The position numbers and the translations under genes were made by a program. 23,291 nucleotides of DNA from a virus, in IMG/VR virus record IMGVR_UViG_3300047201_000052, positions 1 through 23,291 of that record. One strand, 5' to 3'. This document shows positions 7,889 through 23,291 of the stretch, piece after piece. The notes under the pieces were generated by a model. It saw only the letters and a program-made list of their open reading frames with translations. It had not been told where the DNA came from and made no database searches. Each line of letters starts with the position of its first letter. The first letter of the stretch is position 1.

Positions 7889-8683
7889 TTATATAAGGGC
7901 TATTGACTGTTTTTTTAATATTCGTTTGAGTTCCTCAATACGATTATTGATTTCATCTAATCTAACTGGTGTAAAATTATCATACCCTTTGAATATTGAT
8001 TTATAAACAGAAGAATTAGCCATCTGTTTTATAGTTAATAAAATACTTAATTCTTTAACTAAACTTGGAGTAGAGGCATATCCATAACTGTATGTAACTT
8101 TTATCATATCTTCTCCGTCATATGGAAAATTGTCTATCCATCTTATTCTGCCTAATTCTAAATCTTCTGAATTAGCAATATAATCTTCTCCTAATCCTGC
8201 ACTTAGAGTTTCCCAATCGGGGACAGTTGTTTGAACTGAAAGATTTCTTTCAACAGAAGTCAAAGCAATAACAGGATAATGCTTTAAAAAAAAGACTTTT
8301 TGAGAAGCTTCCTTATTAAGATATTCGGTTCCAGATGAACTACCAAATGTTCTTCCTGTTTCTGTATCAATTAAACTATCAGAAGAACTAATCATTTGTT
8401 GGATTATACTATCAGGTAAGTCTGCATAATCATAATCTATTGTAATCGTTCCTGCAGCAGTTAAACCACTTAAACTTAATGTTCCATCATCTAAATCTGA
8501 TATATAATTATTTGGAGTTGTAACTAATACCCCGCCTGTATAAAGTGCAATAGAATTACTAATTAAATTATCATGATCTGTTTCATTCCAATCACTTCCT
8601 GTTCCAACTATCTCACTTCTTATTTTTGTATAAGCATCTTTTCCAAGATGTTTCCAAACTTCACTCGATGACGCATATGACAT
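7889..8683 (-). CDS. Head-tail connector (adaptor) protein
   Basis: The protein has 264 residues and a GAGGT site nine bases before the ATG. The N-terminal 100 residues include a strand-rich insert (GTLSLSGLTAAGTITIDYDY). The rest follows the pattern of gp6/gp15-type connectors that bind under the portal: a helix around DSIIQQMISSSDSLIDTETGR, then 'HYPVIALTSVERN', a strand-rich part ending in VKVTYSYGYA-like IKVTYSYGYASTPSLVKEL, and C-terminal helices (LLTIKQMANSS, NNRIEELKRILKKQ). The first 23 bases overlap the end of the HNH gene upstream. The role is well supported by the 'TYSYGYA..P..VKEL' signature and by its place after the capsid gene. Confidence 0.7.
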   Translation of the reverse strand: MSYASSSEVWKHLGKDAYTKIRSEIVGTGSDWNETDHDNLISNSIALYTGGVLVTTPNNYISDLDDGTLSLSGLTAAGTITIDYDYADLPDSIIQQMISSSDSLIDTETGRTFGSSSGTEYLNKEASQKVFFLKHYPVIALTSVERNLSVQTTVPDWETLSAGLGEDYIANSEDLELGRIRWIDNFPYDGEDMIKVTYSYGYASTPSLVKELSILLTIKQMANSSVYKSIFKGYDNFTPVRLDEINNRIEELKRILKKQSIALI

Positions 8684-9206
8684 TGTAATTATACCTCTCT
8701 TTTAATAATGATTGAAAAAATGAAGTCCACTGTTTTCTATTAAAATTAGTTTTCATATGGCAACTTATACATAAAGTAATACAATTTTCTTTTATAGTAT
8801 TTAATTTATTGTAATCAATATGATGAACTTGTAATCTATTTTCACTTCCACAAATCACACAAGCATGATCTCTTAATTTTATTGCTTCTTTAAATATTTC
8901 AGTAAAATTCTTTCCCCATTTTTCAAACGATTTTCCACCTTTCCAATTAGGATGTTTTTCTAATTTTTTAAAAGAACCAGAATGAAACATAGATTTTCCT
9001 TTATTCCAAGCAGGAAATCCTAAACGATATTTATTTTCTTTCATCATTAAAAATTCTTTTCCTTTATTCCAAGGAATATATCCTTTTTGAAAAGCAGTTT
9101 TTGGAAGATGATTTTTAACTCCATTAGAAATCTTTTCTTTGATTGTTTCACTAAGTATAATTCCTTTTCTACTTGGTGGTTTTCCATAACCTATTTTGTG
9201 TGTCAT
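8661..9206 (-). CDS. HNH homing endonuclease with NUMOD3-type repeats
   Basis: The 181-residue protein should cut DNA at a specific site and promote its own spread. Residues about 8-95 hold NUMOD3-like DNA-binding motifs (GKPPSRKGIILSETIKEKIS, then PWNKGK, AWNKGK and NWKGGKS). Residues about 125-165 form the HNH/zinc unit: CVIC, VHHID, an Asn in the ENCITL segment and CISCH. The gene lies between the capsid protein and the connector. It overlaps the connector start by 23 bases, so it is tightly packed against a structural gene. A weak AGGAAA precedes the ATG. It is probably a freestanding homing gene, since no intron sequence is visible around it. Confidence 0.9.
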   Translation of the reverse strand: MTHKIGYGKPPSRKGIILSETIKEKISNGVKNHLPKTAFQKGYIPWNKGKEFLMMKENKYRLGFPAWNKGKSMFHSGSFKKLEKHPNWKGGKSFEKWGKNFTEIFKEAIKLRDHACVICGSENRLQVHHIDYNKLNTIKENCITLCISCHMKTNFNRKQWTSFFQSLLKERYNYNVICVIE

Positions 9207-9266: not shown

Positions 9267-10262
9267 TTAGTTCTGTATTCCTCTTATCAAGCAATAGGCA
9301 TCTGGATATTTTATAGCGAAAGCCATCCTTGCGGTAGTTTGCCATACATAGACATCAGTTGAGATAGTATAATCTGTTTTCCAGATAAACCCTCTTCTTT
9401 GCCCAAGTATTCCAAACATCTTACTTCTTCCGACTAAAGCATCTGAACTTGCTGATAAAGCGGCAGTTGTTCCGTAGATTAAGTTTATAGGGACTTGTGC
9501 GCTTTGTTTCGCATTTGTTCCATATAATCTTCCAACTACTCCTTCTGCTATCAAAGGACTTGCGTATGTTTCCATGTTCAATATTGGCCTTGTAGTGCTA
9601 TCAGTAAGTTGCATTAACCCACCGATAGTTCTCGGGTTCCAATAAGAAACATCTGGTTGCATATGTTTATCCTTCAAAACTTCTGTAACTGCTACTGCGA
9701 TTGCTTTTAAGCTAATATTAGCTCCTGTGCATCCACTTGCAGTTGCACCTGTTCCCCAAGCTCCAGTAATGTTTGTATTTCCAGCGGCATCAACGGCATT
9801 TGTATAAGATGCTGTATGATACAATCCAAAGAAAGGACTTGCTGCGCCTGTATTACCAGTCGTTAAACAAGAACCTGTCAAAATTTTTCCATCAATATCT
9901 AATGCAAGATCGGTTGCCATTTGGTCTACCAAAGAGTTAGCCAAACCTACATTATTATCTTCAAGAACTTCTGAACTTGCTTGAACAAGAGAAGCTACTT
10001 TTTTAGCGGTTAAAGTTATCTGTCCGTATGCGGGATTGCTCTCTGTTATTGCCCCTGTTTCTGTTACCCAATAAGCAGTTGTTCCAGAAGTTACCTTCGG
10101 AATATACTGCACATCACTTGTCATTTGTCTTACATCCAGATCATCCATTGTTATGGTTTTCTGTGTAATCAAAGCAAGTAACTGATTGGAAAACTCATCA
10201 GGAACAAGGTATCCACCAGCACTATTTGTTGCTTCGTTTAAAGCTTTTGTAATGCTCGGCAT
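9267..10262 (-). CDS. Major capsid protein, HK97 fold
   Basis: The 331-residue product forms the icosahedral shell. It opens MPSITKALNEATNSAGGYLVPDEF, where 'GGYLVP.EF' marks the start of the N-arm in many HK97-family capsids. Further family features are PKVTSGTTAYWVTETGAI, the long helix area SSEVLEDNNVGLANSLVDQMATDLALDIDGKIL, and a C-terminal beta part with FGILGQRRGF and ARMAFAIKYPDAYCLI. There is no N-terminal delta domain: the protein begins about where a mature, cleaved HK97 capsid protein begins. The scaffold is therefore expected on another protein, most likely the gene just upstream, whose stop is one base before this ATG. No ribosome-binding site is seen, so translation is probably coupled. 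Confidence 0.92.
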   Translation of the reverse strand: MPSITKALNEATNSAGGYLVPDEFSNQLLALITQKTITMDDLDVRQMTSDVQYIPKVTSGTTAYWVTETGAITESNPAYGQITLTAKKVASLVQASSEVLEDNNVGLANSLVDQMATDLALDIDGKILTGSCLTTGNTGAASPFFGLYHTASYTNAVDAAGNTNITGAWGTGATASGCTGANISLKAIAVAVTEVLKDKHMQPDVSYWNPRTIGGLMQLTDSTTRPILNMETYASPLIAEGVVGRLYGTNAKQSAQVPINLIYGTTAALSASSDALVGRSKMFGILGQRRGFIWKTDYTISTDVYVWQTTARMAFAIKYPDAYCLIRGIQN

Positions 10263-10695: not shown

Positions 10696-11282
10696 TCTTC
10701 TACCTCTATGAATTTTGGTTCTTCTATTGGTTTTCCGCCTATACTAAATCCAATAGGCATTCCTTCATTAATATATTGCCAAAATAATTCTTGATCAGGA
10801 TGTGCTTTATTTAATCGAACTACTGCAACTAAATGGTCTCCTTCTTGCCTTGCGTCTATCCAAGAGCCCATCATTTGTTTCCAAGAATAAACATTTCTTT
10901 CTCCTGTTTGTTCGTGAAATCCATGGTCTGGAAAAAATCCTATTGTTCCAGATTTAAATTGCATAACCATATCATCAATAGCTTCTTGGCTCATCATTTC
11001 ATTATCTCTATCTTCTTTTAATCCACTTACTGTAACTTCAATAAATCTTTGTTTTGATTTTTCTACTGCATTTGCAGATTTTTGAATATCTACTTCTTCT
11101 TCCCAAAATCTTGTAATAGGTGCTTTAACAAAGAAAACTTCTTCATCTTTCTTATATTGTGCTTGTGCAATTGCCCAGATTTCATCATCTGTATAAGGTT
11201 TTTTAGTTCTTGGATTAGTTTTTCCTTTAAGATTTCTTACAACTGCATCGTGAATTTCATCAAGTTTTTGCGGAATTTTAAC
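10692..11282 (-). CDS. Prohead protease N-terminal part, no canonical start codon
   Basis: The frame is open for 196 codons after a TAG at 11285-11283 and reads as real protein throughout (PQKLDEIHDAVVRNL, DDEIWAIAQAQYKKD, RFIEVTVSGLKEDRDNE). Active-site candidates of the herpes-assemblin-like prohead protease family are His120 in PDHGF and Ser180 in GFSIGG. The frame contains no ATG, GTG or TTG before the ATG-ATG at 10997. Starting there would delete 95 residues, including the first core strand. The HNH gene ends at 11278, inside the beginning of this frame. Possible starts are the ATT at 11276, two bases after the HNH TAA with a weak AGGT upstream, or a +1 shift at GGT-TAA. The third catalytic residue probably lies in the next gene. 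Confidence 0.75.
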   Translation of the reverse strand, partial: VKIPQKLDEIHDAVVRNLKGKTNPRTKKPYTDDEIWAIAQAQYKKDEEVFFVKAPITRFWEEEVDIQKSANAVEKSKQRFIEVTVSGLKEDRDNEMMSQEAIDDMVMQFKSGTIGFFPDHGFHEQTGERNVYSWKQMMGSWIDARQEGDHLVAVVRLNKAHPDQELFWQYINEGMPIGFSIGGKPIEEPKFIEVEE

Positions 11283-11481
11283 CTACCAATAGTGGTTTCT
11301 CATGATGAATTGCCCAATGACAATTATAACAAACCACCATCAAATTATTTAATTGATTATTAAATCTATTTCTATCTATGTGATGAACGCATAATCTTTC
11401 TATTTCTTCTCCACAAATCAATTTAAGGGTTCTTCCACAATTCTCACATTCTTTATTAATCTCTCTAAATTGCTTTGGCAT
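11278..11481 (-). CDS. Small HNH endonuclease abutting the protease
   Basis: The 67-residue product is little more than a bare HNH unit: C12-x2-C15 (ECENCG), VHHID at 32-36, Asn in NNLMVV, and C51-x2-C54-H55 (CYNCH), with four Cys placed to hold one zinc ion. It has no DNA-recognition extension, unlike the second HNH gene in this window. A TATA box lies 20-29 bases before its ATG and there is no ribosome-binding site, so the message is probably leaderless. The stop TAA lies inside the start of the protease frame, which has lost any normal start codon. The first codons, Met-Pro-Lys, could even derive from the original protease start. Freestanding homing gene, intron-encoded endonuclease and bypass-type element are all conceivable. 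Confidence 0.85.
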   Translation of the reverse strand: MPKQFREINKECENCGRTLKLICGEEIERLCVHHIDRNRFNNQLNNLMVVCYNCHWAIHHEKPLLVG

Positions 11482-11533: not shown

Positions 11534-12895
11534 TTAAATAAATGTTTTTAATTTATTATCTATTGGAATTTCTTCTGTTTGATTATTAGGCCTTCCTTCT
11601 TCTTGCCTTTTATCTTCATTAAAATTAATTTTCATATCATCTCCTGTTCTTATTGGCTCTGTTCCCTTGGGTTTTTCTGGCTCTAATCCCATCATTTCTC
11701 TTGCTTCTTCTACTGTAATTAATCCCGCCTGTGTTAGTATTTGAACTACTTGTGCTTCTCTCATTTCATCAATTTTGTATACTCTATTAAATCTCATTTC
11801 TATATGGAAAGGTTCCCATAATTCCATATTAAAAGAATTTTCTAATATTTTTTGCATGAAACTAAGTTTTTTATAATATCCTTCATAAGCTCTATTTACT
11901 GCTCCACCAACTTGCCTAACATCAATTGTTAAATTAACTCTATGTGCGGGAACACCCATAAACATTAAAATTATTTGAGTAAAATGCTGAACTAATTTTG
12001 TAAATTCCATATCTTTGTTAAATTTATTAACTTGTTCTGCCGCTACATTTCCTGTGATTACCATAGAACGATATTTATTTGCTTCTTTTTTTAAATTCTT
12101 TAATTCTTGAACAAGATTTTTATAATTTCTATCATCTGGAGTTGCTTCTGGCATATGAAAAATAAAATAAGGTATTCCATCATTTTCAAAGTATTTTCCT
12201 GCAAATTCTTTAGCAAAGATTAAAGTAGCCATATCAGACATAGCAGTTTCTAATGGAGTAAATCCATAAGGTTGCCCGCCTATGTTAAATAAAGATAAAT
12301 GTATAATATCTTTTGGATAAAATATTCTTTTTCTTCCTTGAACATTTTGTTCATAAGAATTAACTTTTCCTGTTTCATCAAAATTAATTGTTATTGTAGA
12401 AGATTTTAATAATTGTAAATCTTTAGGTATTTTTACATCTTGCTCTATTAATTCATAAACAGCTTGTTTGTCCATTTTAACATTTAATTGTTTAGCAACT
12501 TTTTCAGTTAATTTAGAAACTAAAGATTTCATCTTATCTTCATTAACAGATAATTTGAGAATATAAGAATCTCCAGTGATAACTGTTTCCATTATAGCAT
12601 TAGCCATAAGTTTATAAAAATTAGATTTTAATTGGAATTCCTCTGCTTTATTTTTTGCTGATTTGCTTCCTACCCATCTCCATCCATCTGCCATAATATC
12701 CTCTACTATTGCAACTACACAAGCAGTTATTTCTGGAGAGCATTTAACAACATCATAAAGAGTTTGAACACTAATGCTTGTTTCTTTTGTAAAAATAGTT
12801 TTATCTAATCCTAATTTATCAGCATGAGGCACCCATTCATATTCTAATCCTCTTACATGAGAAGTTTTTTCAATTTTTTGAGCATTTTTTGCCAT
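11534..12895 (-). CDS. Portal protein
   Basis: The 453-residue protein forms the dodecameric DNA channel at one capsid vertex. The N-terminal part has helices with SVQTLYDVVKCSPEITACVVAIVEDI. The centre has KDIIHLSLFNIGGQPYGFTPLETAM, where the G-x-(S/T)-P-L-E-x-A step is characteristic of HK97-type portals. Then come ITGNVAAEQVNKF, the FMGVPAHRVNLT clamp region, and the long stem helix YKKLSFMQKILENSFN. The C-terminus has LTQAGLITVEEAREMMGLEPE, also a portal hallmark. It has its own TATA box and no ribosome-binding site, so it is probably translated from a leaderless message. It follows the terminase in the usual order but is separated from it by a plus-strand gene. Confidence 0.9.
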   Translation of the reverse strand: MAKNAQKIEKTSHVRGLEYEWVPHADKLGLDKTIFTKETSISVQTLYDVVKCSPEITACVVAIVEDIMADGWRWVGSKSAKNKAEEFQLKSNFYKLMANAIMETVITGDSYILKLSVNEDKMKSLVSKLTEKVAKQLNVKMDKQAVYELIEQDVKIPKDLQLLKSSTITINFDETGKVNSYEQNVQGRKRIFYPKDIIHLSLFNIGGQPYGFTPLETAMSDMATLIFAKEFAGKYFENDGIPYFIFHMPEATPDDRNYKNLVQELKNLKKEANKYRSMVITGNVAAEQVNKFNKDMEFTKLVQHFTQIILMFMGVPAHRVNLTIDVRQVGGAVNRAYEGYYKKLSFMQKILENSFNMELWEPFHIEMRFNRVYKIDEMREAQVVQILTQAGLITVEEAREMMGLEPEKPKGTEPIRTGDDMKINFNEDKRQEEGRPNNQTEEIPIDNKLKTFI

Positions 12896-12978: not shown

Positions 12979-13227
12979 ATGGTAAAATTAAAAGTAGGGA
13001 AGTATACTTACGATTATCCAAATGAAGTAATGGATACCGTTAAAATAAATAAACAAATAAAAGAAGAATTTTCTAAATTTTGCAGAGAAAGAAAAATTAA
13101 TAAATGTAAATTAATAGAAGAATTTTATAAAACTATTTTAATAAGATTTAAAGAAGGATCACTCAACTCCTCTATGGGTTACATTACATTAAATATATTT
13201 TTAGATAAATTTAAAAAACATAATTAG
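12979..13227 (+). CDS. Probable ribbon-helix-helix transcription regulator
   Basis: The 82-residue protein is the only plus-strand gene seen. Residues about 18-55 follow the ribbon-helix-helix pattern: a short strand (DTVKINKQI), helix 1 (KEEFSKFCRERK), a turn (INKCK) and helix 2 (LIEEFYKTILIRF). Such proteins bind DNA as dimers through the strand, usually at repeated sites. Its own promoter faces the portal promoter, with a tandem repeat between them, so it may repress both itself and the late structural genes. It converges on the terminase gene, with eight bases between the stops. The first 17 and last 25 residues are outside the recognised core and have no clear match. The fold is inferred from pattern only. 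Confidence 0.6.
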   Translation: MVKLKVGKYTYDYPNEVMDTVKINKQIKEEFSKFCRERKINKCKLIEEFYKTILIRFKEGSLNSSMGYITLNIFLDKFKKHN

Positions 13228-13235
13228 ATAATTAG

Positions 13236-14657
13236 TTATTCTATTCCTCTAATTGTAACATCACTATATGTATTCTGAGAAGCCCTATTTGCAAGAGCTA
13301 AAGAATCACAACAGTCATCGTATTTTCCTTTATGAAATTTTGGGCGGGTTGTTTGTCCCGGACGCAAATCTATTTTTAATGAAAATTCATTCAGTTCTTT
13401 CAATAATTCTTCTGCAAAAGAATAGCAATTTATATCATCTTTAGAGTTAGGGATAACAATTCTAAAATTATCAAATTCATTTCGTAAGTCCATCATCATA
13501 GCATATTTCTCATCATAAGTCATTTTCTTTGGCTCTATCTGAGGAAATTCTTGTTGTATTTCTTTGGCTTGCTGATCACCAAGTGTTGTAGCATCCACAT
13601 ATCCTTTTTTAATAGGAAAATCACTAAGTAATTGCCTTATTCTTCTTTTTTGTTCTTCAAAATTATCTCTAAATCTTAAAGCTTTAGCAATTCTTTTTCT
13701 GTCTGCATTTACTCCTAAAACTATCATTACGGTATAATCTCCTTTTGGAGAAATTGCTAAATCATATCCTAAAAAATATTGTTCATTTGTTCTTCCATAA
13801 GGCAAAAATCCTTCATTACTTAATCCTTTAGATGTTAATTCATAAGGAAATAAAGAATTTGCTGAGCTAATTGGAATTAATAAATATTCTTGGTTATAAG
13901 ATAATTCTCCAATCTCTTTTCTTATTTGTTTTAAACTTCTTTTTGTTGGCAAATCATGAGGAAGTAAAGTATATTTTTGTTCCCATAAAACTTTTCCATC
14001 TTTTTCAGCAGGATATTCCATACTAAAGTATTCTTCATTTTCTTCTAATTCACAAAGCAAATCATTATTAGTTTGTTTAGTTCCTATTACACAAATTCTT
14101 CCCCTGTTTAACTGAACAACTTGTGAAATAGCTGTCCAGAAAATAGATTTATCTTGATATTGCCCTGCCTCATCAGGCATTAAATAATCAATTCTTAATC
14201 CTCTGACATTTTCTCCATATGTTTTGCAATAAAAAACACAACCTGTTTTTAATGATAATTCTGTTGCTTTCCAAGTGCTTTCTGTTCCTTCAGGCATATA
14301 TTGCTTTAATAATTCATTATCAACAATCATTTTTCTTATTAACTTTAAAACTTCTTTAGACTGGTCAAAAGTATTGGAAGTAATTAAGAAATTTAAATTT
14401 TCTATAAAAATTGCTTTCCATAAAAAATACCCCGCCACAAATGAAGTTTTTCCAGATCCTCTAAAAGCAATAATGCAAAGTCTTGACCATTTTTCAAGTA
14501 GTTCAAACCATTCTTTATGATACTCGGCAAGCTCAAATCCCAAAACATGTTCAGCAAAATAAAGATAATCAGCATAACATTCTGTTATAAATATTTCTAT
14601 TTGATTTTCTTTATATTTTGTTTTTTTTAGAATATCGTTTAAACTTCTCATTTTCAA
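13236..14657 (-). CDS. terL: Terminase large subunit
   Basis: The 473-residue packaging motor has an ATPase half and a nuclease half. Walker A is RGSGKTS at 66-72 and Walker B is IDYLMPDE at about 156-163, with a probable coupling segment at ITSNTFDQS. The RNase H-like nuclease shows Asp299 in LGYDLAISPKGDY, Asp355 in GYVDATTLGD and the C-terminal acidic cluster KYDDCCDSLALA. All key residues are present. The start could be either of two ATGs, at 14657 or 14651. The reading frame overlaps the upstream small gene by 41-47 bases and so belongs to the same message as the glycan module. The small terminase subunit is not recognised in the window. Confidence 0.93.
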   Translation of the reverse strand: MKMRSLNDILKKTKYKENQIEIFITECYADYLYFAEHVLGFELAEYHKEWFELLEKWSRLCIIAFRGSGKTSFVAGYFLWKAIFIENLNFLITSNTFDQSKEVLKLIRKMIVDNELLKQYMPEGTESTWKATELSLKTGCVFYCKTYGENVRGLRIDYLMPDEAGQYQDKSIFWTAISQVVQLNRGRICVIGTKQTNNDLLCELEENEEYFSMEYPAEKDGKVLWEQKYTLLPHDLPTKRSLKQIRKEIGELSYNQEYLLIPISSANSLFPYELTSKGLSNEGFLPYGRTNEQYFLGYDLAISPKGDYTVMIVLGVNADRKRIAKALRFRDNFEEQKRRIRQLLSDFPIKKGYVDATTLGDQQAKEIQQEFPQIEPKKMTYDEKYAMMMDLRNEFDNFRIVIPNSKDDINCYSFAEELLKELNEFSLKIDLRPGQTTRPKFHKGKYDDCCDSLALANRASQNTYSDVTIRGIE

Positions 14658-14886
14658 ATTTTAATTTGTTTGCTTCCATAAATTTAGATATAATAAATCT
14701 TATTTTATTCTCTCTTGGGCGATAGACATTCCACCAAGAAAAATAACATTCTTTGCATTTAAAAAAATCATTGCATAACATAGTGCATTTTAAAACTTTT
14801 CCAATAATCTCTTTTGTAATTGGATTAATGATATCATACTCTAAATCGGTATCTCCATATCTGCCAAAACATTTTTTAACTCTCAT
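14611..14886 (-). CDS. Small Cys-containing protein upstream of the terminase
   Basis: I do not recognise this protein. The start chosen is the ATG at 14886, which gives 91 residues and an 11-base overlap with the glycosyltransferase stop; a start at 14916 would lie deep inside that gene. It has C-x3-C and C-x2-C pairs (LKCTMLCNDFFKCKECYF) that could hold a metal ion, an aromatic run (SWWNVYRP) and a basic, helical C-terminus (FENEKFKRYSKKNK). Its 3' end overlaps the terminase by 41-47 bases, so their translation is coupled. The position directly before the large terminase is that of a small terminase subunit, but no helix-turn-helix is evident. A zinc-binding accessory to packaging is an equal possibility. 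Confidence 0.55.
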   Translation of the reverse strand: MRVKKCFGRYGDTDLEYDIINPITKEIIGKVLKCTMLCNDFFKCKECYFSWWNVYRPRENKIRFIISKFMEANKLKFENEKFKRYSKKNKI

Positions 14887-16105
14887 TTTCAAACAATTGT
14901 ATATATCGAGATGCAATTATATCCCAATCATATTTTAAAGAGAATTTTCTTGCTCTTTCAGATCTTTCTTTTTTTCCTTCTTTCCATTCAAGATAAAGTT
15001 TTTCAAGAATTTCAGCAATTTTTATATCATTTGGAATTGCATTTTCTACTCCATTTGGGCCTATTTCAGTTACTTTTCTTCCATATTCATCTGTTAAAAC
15101 AGGAATAAATAAGTCTTGTTCACTTACTATTTCAACAGCAGAAGAATAATTTGTCATCATCAAAGGAACTCCTGCGCTCTGGCATTCTAATCCCGGCAAT
15201 CCAAAACCTTCTCCGCCCACAGCATAACAAAAAACATCCATTAAATTATAAATCTCATTCATGTTTTCTGGTTGGATATTTTGCCTTGTAATTACATCTA
15301 AGTTCGGTTTTGTGGTTACTATTTTAGGGGACGGTTTTTCTAATTCTGGATCTATTTCTGCTTCAAATTTAGTGATTAAGCAAGGAAGATCCCACCCCCC
15401 ATTTGTTTCTGTATGCAGTAATAAAACAACATCATTTTTTACTTTTGCAAATTTTGAAAATCCTTTTATAAGATTAGGCAACATCTTTCTTCTTTGATTT
15501 TTTCCAATAAATCCAACAACAAATTTATTATTGAATTTATATTTTAACCTTATTTCTTCTCTATTTGCTAAAGGATAATAAACTTTTGTATCTACCCCCA
15601 TGGGGATATATCTTAAATTTTTAACATTATGTTTTGTATAAAGAATTTCTCCATTTTTTGCGCCAGCAATATTTATGTCTGGAAAATCAAGAATTCTACT
15701 CCATAACATATGCTCCCAACTTTCCGTATCAACTAAAGAAATGCAAAACCACCTTCCTTTCCATCCTCTTTTTTTGGCTTCACAAATATTTAAATTAGGA
15801 GAGAAATCTATAAATCCTGCTGTTATTCCAATATCTGCCATAGTCAATAAAACATCTGGTTGATATTTTAAAAGATAAGGAAGAACTGTATCAAATCCAT
15901 ATTCTGCTCTATGAACTGGGAGCATCCAATAACCTTCTTTTGTTTCGTGAGGTCTGTCTCTATTTTGCCATCCAACATGATAAAATTTCCAATCAGGTTT
16001 AAGTTTCTTCCATCTTGTTAATAGATTATCCCAAATTTGTCCATACCCGGTAGATGTTTTTGGATCATCTCCGTAAGTGAGCACACAGAATTTTTTATTT
16101 TCCAT
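14876..16105 (-). CDS. GT4-type glycosyltransferase
   Basis: The 409-residue protein has the two-domain GT-B layout of family 4. The N-terminal domain contains STGYGQIWDNLL and PYLLKYQPDVLLTMADIG. The C-terminal domain begins about residue 190 (KFVVGFIGKNQRRKMLPNLIKGF) and carries the nucleotide-sugar motif EGFGLPGLE with both Glu of the EX7E pattern, followed by SAGVPLMMT. It should transfer a sugar from an activated donor to a growing glycan or a protein. No membrane segment or signal is seen. It overlaps its neighbours on both sides (11 bases each) and has GAGGT seven bases before the ATG. Donor and acceptor cannot be told from sequence. Confidence 0.85.
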   Translation of the reverse strand: MENKKFCVLTYGDDPKTSTGYGQIWDNLLTRWKKLKPDWKFYHVGWQNRDRPHETKEGYWMLPVHRAEYGFDTVLPYLLKYQPDVLLTMADIGITAGFIDFSPNLNICEAKKRGWKGRWFCISLVDTESWEHMLWSRILDFPDINIAGAKNGEILYTKHNVKNLRYIPMGVDTKVYYPLANREEIRLKYKFNNKFVVGFIGKNQRRKMLPNLIKGFSKFAKVKNDVVLLLHTETNGGWDLPCLITKFEAEIDPELEKPSPKIVTTKPNLDVITRQNIQPENMNEIYNLMDVFCYAVGGEGFGLPGLECQSAGVPLMMTNYSSAVEIVSEQDLFIPVLTDEYGRKVTEIGPNGVENAIPNDIKIAEILEKLYLEWKEGKKERSERARKFSLKYDWDIIASRYIQLFENES

Positions 16106-17165
16106 TTTTTAAAACCTCAATTAATTTTTTCGCTGAATTTTCCCAGCTCCATTTCTTTCTTATATCTTCTGAATTGATTAATGCTTTTTCTTTTAATTCT
16201 TTTTTATGCTCAAAAGCATATCTCATTTGTTTTTTTAAACTTTCTTTATCTATTAAAGGTTGTAAATTGCCTTCAGCAAAAAATCTTTTATCTGCCTGTT
16301 CCATCTTATCTGCATCAATCCATAAGACACTATCTTTTCCTCTGCAAAAATCCATATGCCCGGAATTATTATCTTTAGTTATTATTAAAGGAAGCCCTGA
16401 TGCCATAGCATTTATTGCTGTTAATCCAAAACCTTCCCCTCGTGTAGGCATTACAAAACAATCTGATTTCTGATAAAATTCAGTTAATTCTTTTTCTGGA
16501 ACATATGCCTCATTAATTAAGATATTTGGATTAGTATGCCCAAGAAGTTCATAAATAGCATTTGCATAAAATCCTATATCAATTTTCTGCCAGAATGTGC
16601 TAATCTTTAACATTAATTTAACTTTTTCATCTTTAAATTCTTCATCAAAAGCTTTAATTAAAACATCTGTTCCTTTTCTGTCATCTATTTTTCCTGTCCA
16701 AGAATTTACTGATAAAAATAAATAATCTTCATTATCTTCAAATTTTTTAGGATAATACATTTCTGGATTTACCCCAAAAGGAACTATCTCTATTTTTTGC
16801 AAAACTCCATTAAATCTAAATAAGTTTTTAGTAGCTTGGCTTGGAACAAGAACTAAATCTGCTGTATTAAGAATTTCTGCCCATCCTTGATGAAGTTTTG
16901 TTCCTTCGTGCAAAAAATACCCTATTATTTTTCCATATCCATCTCTCCAAAATTGAGGATAATCAGCAAAGATAGTGCAATCTACATCTTTAACATCAAT
17001 AGCATTATTTAGAAAGTGTAATCCTTCATTAAAATCATATCCGCTATTCCAAATATCTGCACACTGAATTTTAATTTCTTTTTTTACGAGGGCTTTAACT
17101 ATCTCTCTGGATGCTGTTGCAATTCCTGTCGGATTAAACACGTTTCCTTTCCATAATACTTTCAT
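16095..17165 (-). CDS. GT4-type glycosyltransferase with altered EX7E
   Basis: The 356-residue GT-B protein starts MKVLWKGNVFNPTGIATASREIVKAL, the glycine/serine-rich acceptor-side loop common in family 4. The donor domain starts near residue 145 (YLFLSVNSWTGKIDDRKGTDVLIKAF) and has TRGEGFGLTAINAMASGLPLI. The second Glu of the EX7E motif is replaced by Asn, so the donor-binding site may be altered while the rest of the motif is intact. The ATG overlaps the preceding stop by four bases; the end overlaps the next glycosyltransferase by 11. It is clearly related in layout to that neighbour but not a recent copy. The substrate is unknown. Confidence 0.85.
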   Translation of the reverse strand: MKVLWKGNVFNPTGIATASREIVKALVKKEIKIQCADIWNSGYDFNEGLHFLNNAIDVKDVDCTIFADYPQFWRDGYGKIIGYFLHEGTKLHQGWAEILNTADLVLVPSQATKNLFRFNGVLQKIEIVPFGVNPEMYYPKKFEDNEDYLFLSVNSWTGKIDDRKGTDVLIKAFDEEFKDEKVKLMLKISTFWQKIDIGFYANAIYELLGHTNPNILINEAYVPEKELTEFYQKSDCFVMPTRGEGFGLTAINAMASGLPLIITKDNNSGHMDFCRGKDSVLWIDADKMEQADKRFFAEGNLQPLIDKESLKKQMRYAFEHKKELKEKALINSEDIRKKWSWENSAKKLIEVLKNGK

Positions 17166-17812
17166 TTTATTTTTTTAAAATCTTCTTTTGTATTTACATT
17201 CATATAATATCCTTTTAAAATATACCAATCTCTTTCTTCTACATAATTAAGGGCATCAGTTAATTCTCCAACTGGATTTTTCTTAATTGCCTTAAATAAC
17301 TCCTTAGTTGCCATATATATACCTAACCCTATTAAAGATTTTAAATTAGAAACATCTTTTGGCTTTTCTATAAATTGTTTAGTATAATCTAATCCAAAAT
17401 TTTTCTTTATTTCTTCTTTATTTTCAACTTTTTGCATGCCTACAAGCAAATCAGTTTTCATTCCCTTAAAAGCAGATTTCATAGGGTATAAATCTCCTTT
17501 AAATATTATGTCTCCTAAAATTATAAGCATATCATCACCACTAACTAAATCTTCGGCAAGAGAGATAGCATGAGCACTCCCTTTTTTTTCTTTTTGAGTT
17601 ACATATTCTAATGGCATTCCATTCCAATTATTTCCAAGAACATTTTCAATATCTTTTTCATTTTGGATAATTATCACTTTTCTTATTCCTAATTCAAACA
17701 TATTCAATAAAGGATATTCAATAAGATATTTATTTTTAATCTTGACTAATCCTTTCGTTCCCATTCCAAGTCTTGTTCCCATACCTGCGCAGGGCAGAAC
17801 ACCTACCATCAT
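17162..17812 (-). CDS. Sugar-phosphate nucleotidyltransferase
   Basis: The 216-residue enzyme should join a sugar 1-phosphate to a nucleotide, making the activated donor for the neighbouring transferases. The signature is CAGMGTRLGMGTKGLVKI at residues 8-25, with Lys20 and Lys24 at catalytic positions. KKGSAHAISLA and the metal-binding Asp101 in LIILGDIIF follow. The C-terminal part (FIEKPKDVSNLKSLIGLGIYM, GYYMNVNTKEDFKK) is the usual sugar-binding half. At 216 residues it is a minimal form without an added acyltransferase or dimer domain. It overlaps both neighbours by four bases. Whether it makes CDP-, dTDP- or UDP-sugars cannot be read from the sequence; the next enzyme's likeness to CDP-paratose epimerase hints at CDP. 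Confidence 0.85.
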   Translation of the reverse strand: MMVGVLPCAGMGTRLGMGTKGLVKIKNKYLIEYPLLNMFELGIRKVIIIQNEKDIENVLGNNWNGMPLEYVTQKEKKGSAHAISLAEDLVSGDDMLIILGDIIFKGDLYPMKSAFKGMKTDLLVGMQKVENKEEIKKNFGLDYTKQFIEKPKDVSNLKSLIGLGIYMATKELFKAIKKNPVGELTDALNYVEERDWYILKGYYMNVNTKEDFKKIK

Positions 17813-18834
17813 TTGAATAATTCCTGATTAGATGTTATCCAATCACAAAGTTTAATTAAACCTTTATCAATTGATATTTCTGGTTTCCAATTAAAATCTT
17901 TTTTGGCTTTCTGATAATCACATACAAAATACCAAAGATCACCTCTTCTTTTTGGATTAATAGTTATTAATGGTTGTTTATTATTATTAATAAGTTTTAA
18001 TTTCCATAAGCATTCTCCAAGAGAGATAGAATTTTCAATTCCTCCACCAATATTATAAATCCCTGTTGGACATCCTGCTTTAAACCAGCATTCAAATGCT
18101 CTTGCGGCATCTTCTGCATAAAGAATATCTCTTACTTGCTTATCAGTTCCGAAAATTGTTATTGGCTTTTCCATAATTGTTCTTATCGCAAAGTTAGCTA
18201 CCCATCCATGATCCATTCCACCAAATTGCCTTTCTCCATACATTCCTGTTAATCTAAAACTTGCAGTTTTCATTCCATACATTTCAGCATAACTTTGGGT
18301 GTATAACTCTGTTGCATATTTAGAAATATGTAAAGGAGTTAATTCTCCTTTTAGAACAGGTTGATTTTCATTAATTTCTTCAGGCACATTTACAAATCTT
18401 GTTTCGGTTTCTCCTAATAGTTCATTTATATCATTCCCATAAACATGAATAGAAGAACAATTAATAAAAGGACAATTTAATTTCTTTGCAATTTCAAGCA
18501 TATTTATACAAGACAGTATATTATTATCTGCATCATATTTTGGATCTTCTATTGCAATAGTCATAGCGGGTTGTGCGGCGCAGTGAATTATTAAATCTAT
18601 TCCTGAAAAATCTTCTGCGCATACATCTCTGCAATCCCATTTATGAAATTTAACTGATAATTTATCCAAGAAATCTAAATTATGCTTTCTTGAAGCCAGA
18701 ATATCAAAATCTGTTCTTTTTAATTCTCTGTCATTAAGATTATCAATTCCTTCTATTTTCCAACCTTGTTTTTTAAAATATTCAGCAACATGAGTTCCAA
18801 GAAAACCCGCCACACCCGAAATTAAAACTTTCAT
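17809..18834 (-). CDS. Nucleotide-sugar epimerase/dehydratase, CDP-paratose epimerase-like
   Basis: The 341-residue extended short-chain dehydrogenase has a Rossmann start GVAGFLG (G7, G10, G13) and 'IDNL' at the end of the second strand. NCSSIHVYG supplies the active-site Ser. The block MYGERQFGGMDHGWVANF plus KPITIFGTDKQVRDILYAEDAARAF closely resembles CDP-paratose 2-epimerases. The catalytic Tyr of the Y-x3-K motif is missing: residues 167-172 read PLHISK, with Leu168 where Tyr is expected and Lys172 present. The enzyme may use another proton donor, act on a different substrate or be inactive. A GAGGTG site precedes the ATG, which shares one base with the previous stop. Confidence 0.8.
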   Translation of the reverse strand: MKVLISGVAGFLGTHVAEYFKKQGWKIEGIDNLNDRELKRTDFDILASRKHNLDFLDKLSVKFHKWDCRDVCAEDFSGIDLIIHCAAQPAMTIAIEDPKYDADNNILSCINMLEIAKKLNCPFINCSSIHVYGNDINELLGETETRFVNVPEEINENQPVLKGELTPLHISKYATELYTQSYAEMYGMKTASFRLTGMYGERQFGGMDHGWVANFAIRTIMEKPITIFGTDKQVRDILYAEDAARAFECWFKAGCPTGIYNIGGGIENSISLGECLWKLKLINNNKQPLITINPKRRGDLWYFVCDYQKAKKDFNWKPEISIDKGLIKLCDWITSNQELFK

Positions 18835-20096
18835 TAGAAATCACACCTCTTTAATTGTTCTTCTATTTGATATTGATATTGTTTATAAGCTTCTAAATCT
18901 TTTAATTTATTTGAAATATCTACTAAAGTTTGATTATCTATATCACATATTTTGAAAGGACTAAATAAAAAATTAAAATCCTCATAATTGATTTTTTCAG
19001 GTATTCTTCCCTGTTCTTTTAAATCATTCCACATTTTTGTTCCGGGAAAAGGCGTAGTTATACAAACCCCAATTCCGCCCGTTATTCTGTTATTTTTGAT
19101 AAATTCTTTGGTTAATCTTATATCTTCAATAGTTTCATCTGGACCACCTATCATAAATGTTCCATTTGGAAATATTCCTATTTCATTACAAAGTTTTATA
19201 CTTTCTTCATTTTGAAGAATTGTTGTTCTTTTGTTATAAATATCAAGCATTCTTTGGCTTCCACTTTCCCAACCAAAAGTTATCTGTACACATCCCGCCT
19301 CTTTAGCCAAAATTAAAAGATTTTTGTCAAGATTATCAACTCTTGAATTTCCACCCCATCTTATTCTTATTTTTCTTTCTATTATTAATTCACAGATTTT
19401 CTTTACCCTATCTTTCATTACAAAAAAATTATCTTCAATAAAAAATAGACTATCAATTTGATGATGTTTAATCAGATATTCAATTTCTTCAATAACTTTT
19501 TCAGCAGAATTATATCTAAATTTTAATCCTTTAAAAGAATTATGGCAAAATGTGCAAGAATAAGGGCATCCTCTACTTGTTAGAATATTTCCTGTTCTTG
19601 AATTTTCTGGAATACATCTTAATATTTTTGGCTTTACACTAACATAGAATTCCATATTCAATAAATCATAGGCAGGTAAAGGCAATTCATCTAAATTCTC
19701 TATTGGAATTCCTTTGATTATTCCTGTTAAATTTTCATCAATTATCTTTTTTAAGATTATTTCTCCTTCTCCTATTACAACTGCATCTGCATGCTTAATT
19801 GCTTCTTCTGGCAGTATAGATGCATGAATTCCACCAATTACTACTTTATATCCTTTTTTTCTGGCTAAATCTGCACATAAATATGCTGTGTTAATTGTTA
19901 AAGTTGTTCCTGTAATTCCTACTAAATCTGGCTTGAATTCATCTATTTGGGAAAGATTATCTCCACTCGCCATATCCACTATTTTAACTTGATGATTAAA
20001 TTGCTTAATATAAGAAGCCAGTAATGCAAGAGAAATAGGTGGAGCTCCACTATAAGAAAACTTATTTGAAGGATTTATTAATGCAAGTTTGCTCAT
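18834..20096 (-). CDS. B12-binding-type radical SAM protein
   Basis: The 420-residue protein has an N-terminal cobalamin-binding-like Rossmann domain (residues 1-130: PPISLALLASYIKQFNHQVKIVD, PDLVGITGTT, KVVIGGIHASILPEEAI, VIGEGE). The His of the base-off motif D-x-H-x-x-G is absent. The radical SAM core follows with C177-x3-C181-x2-C184 in SRGCPYSCTFCHNSF, which should hold the 4Fe-4S cluster. Further core elements are FFIEDNFFV, GGNSRVDNL and FMIGGPDETIEDI. Family members methylate or rearrange unactivated carbons in lipids, peptides and sugars. It sits among glycosylation genes, with GGAGGT six bases before its ATG and a four-base overlap upstream, so a sugar or glycan carrier is a plausible substrate, though unproven. 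Confidence 0.85.
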   Translation of the reverse strand: MSKLALINPSNKFSYSGAPPISLALLASYIKQFNHQVKIVDMASGDNLSQIDEFKPDLVGITGTTLTINTAYLCADLARKKGYKVVIGGIHASILPEEAIKHADAVVIGEGEIILKKIIDENLTGIIKGIPIENLDELPLPAYDLLNMEFYVSVKPKILRCIPENSRTGNILTSRGCPYSCTFCHNSFKGLKFRYNSAEKVIEEIEYLIKHHQIDSLFFIEDNFFVMKDRVKKICELIIERKIRIRWGGNSRVDNLDKNLLILAKEAGCVQITFGWESGSQRMLDIYNKRTTILQNEESIKLCNEIGIFPNGTFMIGGPDETIEDIRLTKEFIKNNRITGGIGVCITTPFPGTKMWNDLKEQGRIPEKINYEDFNFLFSPFKICDIDNQTLVDISNKLKDLEAYKQYQYQIEEQLKRCDF

Positions 20097-21157
20097 TTCA
20101 TAACCTCCAAAACTTTTTCTGAAAATTTATCCCAAGTAAGATTTTTCTTTACCCATTGTTTTTTTCTTCCTGTTCTGTGATAATCTAAATAAAACATATC
20201 TTTTGCTGATATTGGATGTTCAAAATAAGTAACAATATGATCAATATAATCTTCTATTTTGTCACAAACAAAAGCTAAACCATTTTCTTCTAAAATAGAA
20301 CTTGCAGTCATTTCTTTGCTTACTATTATTATGCATCCAGCAGATATAGCTTCAAATGGACTTAACCAACTTCCCTGAGATTTAACAGGCATTAAAACTA
20401 TATCAGTTAAATTATAGATATTTCTTACTTCTTCTCTATTAATTACTCCTGTAAAAATAACATTTCCTATATTTCCATCTTGCATAATCTGATTTCTTAA
20501 TTCTTCTGCATAAGGATTAATTTCTTTTCCTACTAATAATAATTTAGCATTAGGAATTTTCTTTAAGACTTCTTTAAATATTTCATAAGTGAATTTTGTA
20601 TTCTTTGTTGGATGAATAAATCCTACTTGTGTAATAACAAAACTATCTTTCAAATCATACTTATCAGTTGGCTCAATCTTTTCAGAAAAGAAATCATAAT
20701 CAACTCCATAGTTTATTATCTCACTATCCATTCCATATAATTCTTTAAATCTCTTTTGGTTAAATTCATCTGCAACAATTACTTTATCTATAAAATTATT
20801 GACTATTTCTTTTTCCTTGTCTGGAACATATCCTAAATCCAAGAAAGATTGTGGTTCATTACAAAGCCAGATATTTTTGTTTTTTATTCCATAACTCATT
20901 AATTCACATGGATGATTATTGTAAAATATTACATCAAAATCTATATGAATTTGCTTTAATACATTTACCATTTCTGCGAAATCTACACAAAATAATAATC
21001 TTGTATCAATTAAATCTTTTCTCACATCTTCTTTCATCTGTGTAGTTAGAATAGTTGTCTGAATATGATGGTCTGAACAATAATTGCAGAATTTTACAAT
21101 TACTCTTTCTGCTCCGCCATAAATCCAAAACGAAGGATGGCAAATCAAGACTTTCAT
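20093..21157 (-). CDS. GT4-type glycosyltransferase with altered EX7E
   Basis: The 354-residue GT-B protein starts MKVLICHPSFWIYGGAERVIVKF, the GGAE loop of many family 4 enzymes. A hinge near residue 165 leads to the donor domain (SFVITQVGFIHPTKNTKFTYEIF, AKLLLVGKEI, VIFTGVINREEVRNIY). The donor motif reads SQGSWLSPFEAISAGCIIIV: the second Glu of EX7E is kept but the first is Gln. Such changes occur in active family 4 enzymes but can alter donor use. GAGGT lies ten bases before the ATG, and four-base overlaps join it to both neighbours. No membrane anchor is seen; membrane association through basic surface patches is common in the family. Confidence 0.85.
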   Translation of the reverse strand: MKVLICHPSFWIYGGAERVIVKFCNYCSDHHIQTTILTTQMKEDVRKDLIDTRLLFCVDFAEMVNVLKQIHIDFDVIFYNNHPCELMSYGIKNKNIWLCNEPQSFLDLGYVPDKEKEIVNNFIDKVIVADEFNQKRFKELYGMDSEIINYGVDYDFFSEKIEPTDKYDLKDSFVITQVGFIHPTKNTKFTYEIFKEVLKKIPNAKLLLVGKEINPYAEELRNQIMQDGNIGNVIFTGVINREEVRNIYNLTDIVLMPVKSQGSWLSPFEAISAGCIIIVSKEMTASSILEENGLAFVCDKIEDYIDHIVTYFEHPISAKDMFYLDYHRTGRKKQWVKKNLTWDKFSEKVLEVMK

Positions 21158-22197
21158 TCTAAAGAATACCTCTTTTTAATTAATAATCCTTGCCCTTTAA
21201 CATAAGGCATTACCCATCTTTTTAAAATTCTCTCATTAGTTAATTGATAGACTGCATTTCCTTTATTTTCCAGTTTCCCTTCATCAAATTTTTTATAGAT
21301 ATTTTTATATTTTTGTTTGTTCCAGAAATGAATATAATGCCCTCTTACAATAAATTTACAAGAAAGTCTATAAATTTTTCCAGATTCTATTTCATTCAGA
21401 TAATCTTTTAGATAACCATTAATCTTTATTTCCATTAAATTTTTAGGGTAGGGGGTTTTTCCCTTCTTTTCTCTTCTTTTATTTTTCTTTTCTATATCTG
21501 AAAGATTAATCGGGAAATATCTTATATCATCAGAATTAATAAAATTCTGAAATGCTTCTACGAAATTCCAAATTTCTGAATATTTTTTGTTTATTTTATC
21601 ATTCTTTTTATCATCAAAGATTTCTAATTTATTCTTTCCAATTCCATGATTATTATTAATAGAAATTCTAAAAATGTTTTTTGTGATAGGAAAATATTTT
21701 TCAATTCTTTCTAAATCTTTTGAAAGATATTCTTTTTCTTCTTCAGTATTATCTTCAACAATATTTATAGGTTTATCAAAATGGTAGCGTTCTATAATAT
21801 TTTTGGAAATAACCGCATTCTCATCATAATATAATGCTTCAATTCTTAATGCAGATAAATAAGGTTCATTTATATCCGTAGTCCAATTATTTTTTATAGC
21901 TTGTAAACTCTTTTTTTGTTGTTCGAGTTCTTCTTTATCATATCCATGTAAAATAGAAATCCCAAATATATATCCACTCTTATATGGGAAACAGCATTCA
22001 ATAAATACTTTATGAAAAGGCAAATTAAAAAAAGTTTTGTTATCACATTTAGTATTCTTTAATAAAAAAGTTATTGCATCATTTAATTCAAAAAAATTAT
22101 AATCTTCATAATTTAATCTCCATATTTCTCTCATTCTTAAAGTTTTCAATCTTCCTTTAATTCCTAATTCTTCATAAATTTCTTCTGGAGTTTTCAT
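21154..22197 (-). CDS. Unrecognised protein within the glycan module
   Basis: I do not recognise a function. The start chosen is the ATG at 22197 (MKTPEEIYEEL), which overlaps the previous stop as ATGA and has GAGAGGTG upstream; a start at 22212 is less likely. The product has 347 residues, is rich in Lys, Asn and Ile, and has no membrane segment. The middle is highly charged (NTEEEKEYLSKDLERIEKYF; KKNKRREKKGKTPYPKNL). The C-terminal 100 residues contain SCKFIVRGHYIHFWNKQKYKN and later KRWVMPYVKGQG. This recalls a 'VRGHWR ... W-x-x-P-x-x-(K/R)G' motif found in many uncharacterised phage and actinobacterial proteins. The link is from memory. Its tight coupling to radical SAM and glycosyltransferase genes suggests co-expression, not necessarily shared function. 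Confidence 0.6.
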   Translation of the reverse strand: MKTPEEIYEELGIKGRLKTLRMREIWRLNYEDYNFFELNDAITFLLKNTKCDNKTFFNLPFHKVFIECCFPYKSGYIFGISILHGYDKEELEQQKKSLQAIKNNWTTDINEPYLSALRIEALYYDENAVISKNIIERYHFDKPINIVEDNTEEEKEYLSKDLERIEKYFPITKNIFRISINNNHGIGKNKLEIFDDKKNDKINKKYSEIWNFVEAFQNFINSDDIRYFPINLSDIEKKNKRREKKGKTPYPKNLMEIKINGYLKDYLNEIESGKIYRLSCKFIVRGHYIHFWNKQKYKNIYKKFDEGKLENKGNAVYQLTNERILKRWVMPYVKGQGLLIKKRYSLE

Positions 22198-23252
22198 TTG
22201 TATAAAATGCACCTCTCACAAGATTTACACATTTTATTTGATTGAATAACATCTATCATAGTTTTATATTTTTCTCCTTTCCAAATAGTTTTAAAATCTT
22301 CTTTAAGAATATTGCCTAAACTTGTATCTCTTTGCCATTTTCTGTCATTCTGCTCATTAAGAGAGCAACAAGGAACAACTGTGCCATCTACAAAAATAAA
22401 GGGTTGGTTCCAAACTGTGCAGGTATTCATAGGAGATTTATTTCCTGTGTTTATATTGAAAGAAACAGGAATTCCAAGAGTTCTTCCTTTTTCCATTATT
22501 TCTCTTTTTTCTTCATCTGTTATGTCTATGAACCAATCCTCTATTTCTGGGTAGTTATGAAGTAATTTTGTAATTTGAACATTTATAACATCTACTTTAA
22601 GAGAATGTATCATTTCTAAATATTTTATTATTTCATGCTTGTTATGTTTTCCTATAATATAATGAAACCAAAGTTCAGGAAAATAAGAATTTCTTTCTTT
22701 TTTCATCTTGTCTAAAAGCTTGATATTTTTAATCACTTTTTCATAAGTTGCATTTACTCTAATTTTTTCATAAGTTTCTTTTGTTGCCGCATCCATAGAA
22801 ACATAAACCTTGTCTAATCCAATATCTAACCAGTGTTTTATATCTTCTGGCTTTAGCCAATTAAATGTATCAAAGATTTCTATAAAAATTCCTTCTCTAT
22901 TTTCCTTTAAATAAGACAGCATTTTTTTATAATCTATATTTGAATAACTCTCTCCTATTCCTGTTAATCCTATTTCTCTTAAATTTGGAAATTGCTTAAT
23001 TATTTTTTTAAAATTCTCAAAACTCATTAACTGACTTTTTTCTTTCCAGTGAGTATGCTCGCACATAATACATTTAAGAGGGCAGGTTGTTGATACTTCT
23101 ACTTCAATTTGTTCTGGATAAGGCCTGTTTGTTTGGATAAAATCAATTATCTGTTTATTTCTTGCACAATAGATAGTATGAAACCAGATATAATTAAAAC
23201 ACCATTTTAACCCTTTCTTATTAAAATTAGGATTAAGAATAAAAGTTTGCAT
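22194..23252 (-). CDS. Radical SAM protein with SPASM-type C-terminus
   Basis: From the ATG at 23252 the protein has 352 residues. C57-x3-C61-x2-C64 (STTCPLKCIMCEH) binds the radical SAM cluster, and LTGIGESYSN is the SAM-contacting strand. The C-terminus has added cysteines (NTCTVW, VVPCCSL and C342-x2-C345-x2-C348 in MCKSCERC) typical of SPASM auxiliary iron-sulfur clusters, with GNILKEDFKTIWKGEKY as the usual spacer. SPASM enzymes modify peptides or proteins and, in some groups, sugars and aminoglycosides. Codons above 23252 remain open in the same frame to the window edge, so the true start may lie outside and this entry may be short at its N-terminus. It overlaps the next gene by four bases and is the first visible gene of the operon. 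Confidence 0.85.
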   Translation of the reverse strand: MQTFILNPNFNKKGLKWCFNYIWFHTIYCARNKQIIDFIQTNRPYPEQIEVEVSTTCPLKCIMCEHTHWKEKSQLMSFENFKKIIKQFPNLREIGLTGIGESYSNIDYKKMLSYLKENREGIFIEIFDTFNWLKPEDIKHWLDIGLDKVYVSMDAATKETYEKIRVNATYEKVIKNIKLLDKMKKERNSYFPELWFHYIIGKHNKHEIIKYLEMIHSLKVDVINVQITKLLHNYPEIEDWFIDITDEEKREIMEKGRTLGIPVSFNINTGNKSPMNTCTVWNQPFIFVDGTVVPCCSLNEQNDRKWQRDTSLGNILKEDFKTIWKGEKYKTMIDVIQSNKMCKSCERCILYK

Positions 23253-23291
23253 AGCTTTTTCAACTATTGCTTTTTCTAATTGTTCTCTTTC

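Follow-up and report, generated by a model that had tools for sequence, protein, structure and literature searches.

In chloroviruses, virus-encoded enzymes build the capsid glycans in the cytoplasm; two glycosyltransferases (GTs) present in all 43 viruses have been assigned to the glycan core, and the decorations are virus-specific (PMC5408694). Mycobacteriophages carry capsid glycans as well (PMC11256854). Here we analysed a run of glycan genes that adjoins the gene for the large terminase subunit (TerL) in the virus record IMGVR_UViG_3300047201_000052 of IMG/VR, positions 1 to 23,291; this whole stretch of 23,291 nucleotides is called the window. Comparison with related contigs points, with reasonable probability, to a group of head-tail viruses that attaches glycans to the proteins of its own virions in the cytoplasm, by means of two conserved core enzymes and with a sugar that varies.

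Genes were identified from open reading frames and from matches to Pfam, PHROGs and NCBIfam profiles. All main genes of the window lie on the minus strand. Read from 23291 to 13236, they encode a radical SAM (rSAM) enzyme with a SPASM domain, a 347-aa protein, GT3, a B12-binding radical SAM enzyme (B12-rSAM), an SDR protein, a nucleotidyltransferase (NTPt), GT2, GT1, a small Cys-rich protein (Cys protein) and TerL, followed by portal, capsid and tail genes. GT1 to GT3 are GT4-type glycosyltransferases, numbered so that GT1 is nearest TerL. As read from the sequence, rSAM/SPASM and the 347-aa protein overlap by 4 nucleotides (ATGA), and the same 4-nucleotide ATGA overlap joins the 347-aa protein to GT3, GT3 to B12-rSAM, SDR to NTPt and NTPt to GT2. 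B12-rSAM and SDR share 1 nucleotide (TAATG), and overlaps of 11 nucleotides are found between GT2 and GT1 and between GT1 and the Cys protein. At the last junction the Cys protein (start ATG 14886) overlaps TerL by 41 nucleotides; the TerL start at ATG 14651 is backed by homologue alignment. A preliminary description of this DNA had proposed that the genes of a virus-borne glycan pathway and the packaging gene form a single chain, joined by overlaps of 1–11 bases. The pathway and its linkage are borne out and are kept across a virus group. The overlap range holds through GT1 and the Cys protein and is exceeded at TerL, and the enzymes listed earlier were confirmed by profiles, the 347-aa protein having been left out of that list.

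Relatives were retrieved with several queries. TerL yielded 2 relatives at 57–61%, a 3-sequence TerL alignment 6, and a GT2 alignment 17, the last retrieval being biased towards GT2. A capsid alignment yielded 57 loci, with about 35 contigs at ≥50% identity. To avoid the GT2 bias, GT1 and GT2 were counted only in contigs retrieved by the capsid protein alone. GT1 lay directly upstream of TerL in 33/33 independent contigs with sequence there, usually within 20 bases and otherwise with one small or HNH gene in between; two further contigs end at or before the GT1 site. Presence of GT1 was recorded in 35/35 other contigs. GT2 precedes GT1 in all 27 contigs reaching it, and a 28th contains the end of GT2; in some contigs the two are separated by a methyltransferase, by HNH genes or by small genes. 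The gene order whose recurrence in related viruses had been suggested as a check is thus found in independent contigs, so neither chance nor misassembly accounts for it. Contigs L022 and L047 are without a sugar set and show chaperonin, an enlarged GT2, GT1 and TerL, apparently the minimal layout. Distances of GT1 and GT2 correlated with those of portal, major capsid protein (MCP) and TerL (Mantel r 0.55–0.82, p 0.0005), comparable to the structural genes among themselves (Mantel r 0.66–0.77). The core GTs are co-inherited with the structural genes.

Two types of sugar set were distinguished in the group. The set of the window (set A) occurs in full in G013 (L090+L050), in the order chaperonin, rSAM/SPASM, GT3, B12-rSAM, SDR, NTPt, GT2, GT1 and TerL, and with additional genes interspersed in G007 (L089+L055); parts of it are present in L002, L004, L028/L085 and L029. 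Set B, in varying combinations, consists of a GMD-like SDR, a thiamine diphosphate enzyme, an aminotransferase, two further radical SAM proteins, a cytidylyltransferase-like protein, LicD, methyltransferases, a split transketolase and a DUF2061 membrane protein. On the portal tree sets A and B alternate: at least 4 changes are needed, at least 3 of them forced by strongly supported branches, and G007 with set A groups with two set B contigs at support 100/98. The sugar sets have therefore been swapped around a constant pair of GT1 and GT2, as would be expected for a surface glycan that varies.

The Glycos_transf_1 domain was above the curated cut-off in GT1, GT2 and GT3. In alignments, the EX7E motif is canonical in GT1 only, GT2 having EX7N and GT3 QX7E. 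Orthologues of GT3 in relatives show 42–45% identity. In L050 (4523–5720) a frameshift breaks GT1, which reflects a sequencing error or decay of the gene. The closest solved structure of both the GT1 and the GT2 profile is 3oy2, B736L of chlorovirus NY-2A. Distant GT1 homologues in isolated phages sit within blocks of head genes: Pontimonas phage phiPsal1 has one immediately behind its capsid gene and Microcystis phage Mae-JY09 one close to its capsid gene, in S-CBS4 the homologue follows the portal gene, and in Tetrasphaera phage TJE1 it lies upstream of terL.

No membrane-like segment was found in any glycan protein of the window, and the Polysacc_synt flippase family was found in 0/14 records, which is indicative only because the records are fragmentary or of unknown completeness. 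In set B one small membrane protein is the exception to this solubility. The pairing of a membrane flippase with a membrane GT that characterizes Gtr-type O-antigen or serotype conversion was not seen. The lack of membrane enzymes and flippase, the GT1 homologues among head genes, the B736L match and the chlorovirus-like layout make virion glycosylation the best explanation. The preliminary description had left the choice between virions and the host envelope, for instance to block superinfection. The virion is now favoured, and the envelope is less likely given the missing membrane protein and flippase and a GT pair co-inherited with structural genes. Remodelling of S-layer or lipid glycans at the host cell surface during infection, whether to prevent superinfection or to aid release, is in our view a rather unlikely role of the pathway. 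The gene content does resemble that of cell-surface polysaccharide loci, and set B contains LicD, a CTP-transferase-like gene and the DUF2061 protein. However, besides the results on flippase and membrane segments, the core GTs occur throughout the group and share the inheritance of the capsid genes, unlike optional conversion genes.

The sugar-making enzymes were compared with characterized families, and none in the window reached any specific NCBIfam cut-off. The rSAM/SPASM gene is apparently cut by the end of the window, and its start probably lies outside; the nearest NCBIfam model, TIGR04317, was below cut-off, and orthologues at 48–56% occur in L004, L085, L089 and L090 in the same gene set. 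For B12-rSAM, with orthologues at 55–59% in L050/L090 and L089, the best PDB match was AprD4 (6fd2), followed by OxsB (5ul2); against the AprD4 model NF033070 it scored 88 bits, short of the cut-off of 500 bits. AprD4 is a sugar-deoxygenating enzyme, a radical SAM diol dehydratase that acts on the sugar ring. The SDR protein best matched CDP-tyvelose 2-epimerase (1orr, 1.3e-41), a resemblance by sequence only. It keeps GxxGxxG, but the catalytic Tyr of the YxxxK motif expected of a classical SDR epimerase is replaced: TPLHISK stands in the window, TPLH[IV]SK in the window and all aligned set A orthologues, and SPYGVSK in the other SDRs of the alignment. Of the epimerisation step proposed earlier, the family (epimerase/dehydratase) is confirmed, and the activity is putative given the missing Tyr. 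A scan of viral contigs with SDR alone gave no match. For NTPt, RmlA/AglF-like NCBIfam models were below cut-off, and the best PDB match was glucose-1-phosphate thymidylyltransferase 3hl3. The matches of B12-rSAM to AprD4 and OxsB and of SDR to CDP-tyvelose 2-epimerase suggest that the putative product is a deoxy sugar or another rare one; a rare sugar made with two radical SAM types, as the preliminary description suggested, is plausible.

Many SPASM enzymes act on peptides, and the SPASM protein matches peptide or metalloenzyme maturase models, albeit below cut-off. The two radical SAM enzymes could accordingly modify a virion peptide, as in ribosomal peptides, that is later glycosylated. 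This is improbable: AprD4, the closest solved relative of B12-rSAM, is a sugar-ring enzyme, and no precursor-peptide gene was seen save possibly the small Cys protein, which is not present in relatives. DNA glycosylation by phage GTs is also known, and cytoplasmic enzymes would fit a role in glycosylating viral DNA bases against restriction. A modified base usually must be made first, however, and the thymidylate synthase/dCMP hydroxymethylase family was found in 0/14 records, an absence that is not final in fragments. Sets that remodel nucleotide sugars are also atypical of DNA glycosylation systems, and we consider this explanation very improbable. The proposal that host surface genes were joined by misassembly, or are passing cargo without a viral role, draws on upstream sets that are exchanged and resemble cellular genes; it has hardly any probability left, misassembly being rejected by identical junctions in many independent assemblies at 45–65% identity, including GT1 beside TerL in 33/33 contigs, and the co-inheritance of GT1 and GT2 with structural genes already contradicting it for these two.

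If the viruses do glycosylate their own virions, NTPt would activate a sugar phosphate, and SDR and B12-rSAM, possibly with the SPASM enzyme, would remodel the activated sugar into an unusual sugar. In the cytoplasm, the soluble GT4 enzymes would then decorate a virion protein, most probably a capsid or tail protein, with a short glycan. All members of the group would share a core laid down by GT1 and GT2, topped by a variable outer sugar from GT3 and the exchangeable upstream set. Several points weigh against virion glycosylation. Acceptor, sugar, enzyme order and timing are what we infer, and gene position alone cannot separate a virion from a host acceptor. The closeness to B736L is at the level of the GT4 family only (E about 1e-10), and the biochemical function of B736L itself is not known (PMC5408694). 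Near-copies among the contigs inflate the Mantel correlations somewhat. Finally, GT2 and GT3 each are without one Glu of EX7E and SDR is without the catalytic Tyr, so some pathway enzymes may be atypical or inactive. A more specific proposal is tentative: an O-antigen-like "virion serotype" system of archaeal head-tail viruses, in which the two core GTs, fixed next to TerL, might glycosylate an HK97 capsid and interchangeable radical SAM sugar sets upstream might change the outer sugar between close relatives.

Two genes of the chain are local insertions. The 347-aa protein had no Pfam, PHROGs or NCBIfam match and no relative in viral contigs, and L004, L085 and L090 have no counterpart between rSAM and GT3. 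For the Cys protein, Pfam and PHROGs gave no family match; its site in relatives holds HNH genes, a 61-aa CxxC protein or nothing. The Cys protein was rejected as a functional link to TerL, and the earlier picture of a glycan chain leading through it into the terminase was abandoned. HNH-type endonuclease genes, recognized by eye, also lie among the structural genes of the window (8661–9206 and 11278–11481), and in some relatives genes like them sit between GT1 and TerL. The opposite-strand gene between terL and portal is a candidate regulator.

Table 1. Features of the glycan and head-gene region of the window, and chaperonin genes of relatives
Feature	Coordinates	Strand	Support or remark
Radical SAM + SPASM enzyme (CxxxCxxC)	22194..23291	-	Pfam PF04055 1.1e-15, PF13186 3.5e-13
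347-aa soluble protein	21154..22197	-	Insertion specific to the window contig
GT3, GT4-family glycosyltransferase, QX7E replacing EX7E	20093..21157	-	PF00534 2.6e-18
B12-binding-domain radical SAM enzyme, candidate sugar-modifying	18834..20096	-	PF02310 8.9e-17, PF04055 4.7e-22
SDR, nucleotide-sugar epimerase/dehydratase-like	17809..18834	-	PF01370 8.2e-39
Sugar-1-phosphate nucleotidyltransferase (GxGTRL signature)	17162..17812	-	PF00483 5.5e-16
GT2, core GT4 glycosyltransferase (EX7N)	16095..17165	-	PF00534 1.1e-14
GT1, core GT4 glycosyltransferase (EX7E), adjoining TerL	14876..16105	-	PF00534 3.7e-9; PHROG 2170 1.8e-30
Small Cys-rich 91-aa protein, local insertion	14611..14886	-	No family match
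Large terminase subunit TerL	13236..14651	-	PHROG 38 2.5e-47; PF17289
Small conserved gene between terL and portal, ribbon-helix-helix (RHH)-like by eye	12979..13227	+	39-66% orthologues in most contigs
Portal protein	11534..12895	-	PHROG 12 1.9e-29
HK97-type MCP, candidate glycan acceptor	9267..10262	-	PHROG 10 1.7e-27
Chaperonin, outside the window	L090 3412-4833; L089 6816-8222; L085 4649-6070; L022 7717-9132, others		

A group II chaperonin gene (PF00118) was present upstream of the glycan genes in 13/13 relatives tested. Its best PDB matches were thermosomes and CCT, i.e. group II, and the protein may fold capsid proteins or glycan enzymes. No promoter motif emerged for the putative late expression put forward in the preliminary description: upstream of the chaperonin genes of relatives no shared TATA motif was detected. 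Tailed viruses have been attributed to archaeal hosts on the basis of such chaperonin genes (PMC5332604), and the group II chaperonin makes an archaeal host quite likely here; no direct host link was found. Profile searches of genome contigs with TerL alignments, made to find a host, gave no match, and a tRNA search returned one tRNA-Met, in L010 only. Sample 3300035698 comes from Ace Lake in Antarctica, whose lower zone is anoxic (PMC8542988). Further observations in relatives concern other genes. The portal gene lies on the strand opposite to TerL and capsid in three closely related contigs (L013 14538–16181, L041 7132–8784 and L055 6930–8621), and no clear long inverted repeats flank it there. 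A P-loop ATPase is split right after Walker A by an apparent intein with an HNH nuclease in L078 (7927–9922, minus), with a similar case in L022 (1403–3434). In L014 (13471–15732) the TerL frame has 753 aa; judging from its PHROGs matches, about 280 aa of the C-terminal part may be an intein-like insertion.

Compared with described systems, the locus shares with the chloroviruses PBCV-1 and NY-2A virus-encoded soluble GTs and sugar-nucleotide enzymes, with few GTs universal and others variable. The chloroviruses differ in being eukaryotic giant viruses with a different capsid and only distantly related GTs, and we know of no radical SAM or terminase linkage in their system. Tetrasphaera phage TJE1 has a nucleotidyltransferase-kinase-epimerase-methyltransferase-GT run on the same side of terL, with a GT 23% identical to GT1; the combination thought uncommon in head-tail viruses is therefore only partly so. 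In contrast to the window, TJE1 has one GT, a kinase, no annotated radical SAM enzyme, several genes between GT and terL, and a bacterial host. The mycobacteriophages Che8 and Rita are head-tail viruses with their own GTs and a glycosylated MCP (PMC11256854); in their relative Maravista the GTs are found towards the 3' end of the genome and not beside terL, no sugar-remodelling set is reported there, and the host is bacterial. Marine group II (MGII) viruses likewise combine an archaeal-type group II chaperonin with a head-tail virion, which served as the host clue, but glycosyl genes are not mentioned for them (PMC5332604), whereas in the group of the window the chaperonin heads the glycan operon. 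Literature searches of partial coverage returned no account of such an arrangement in archaeal viruses. Viral capsid glycosylation is already known, and the arrangement of GT core and sugar set would be a variation on it. If our reading is true, self-made capsid glycans, known in algal giant viruses and some mycobacteriophages, extend to probable archaeal head-tail viruses. The fixed core GTs with exchangeable sugar sets would then offer a layout for testing whether the glycan serves to choose a receptor, to stabilize the virion or to evade recognition by the host. The unexplored radical SAM enzymes, too, are of interest as possible makers of rare sugars.

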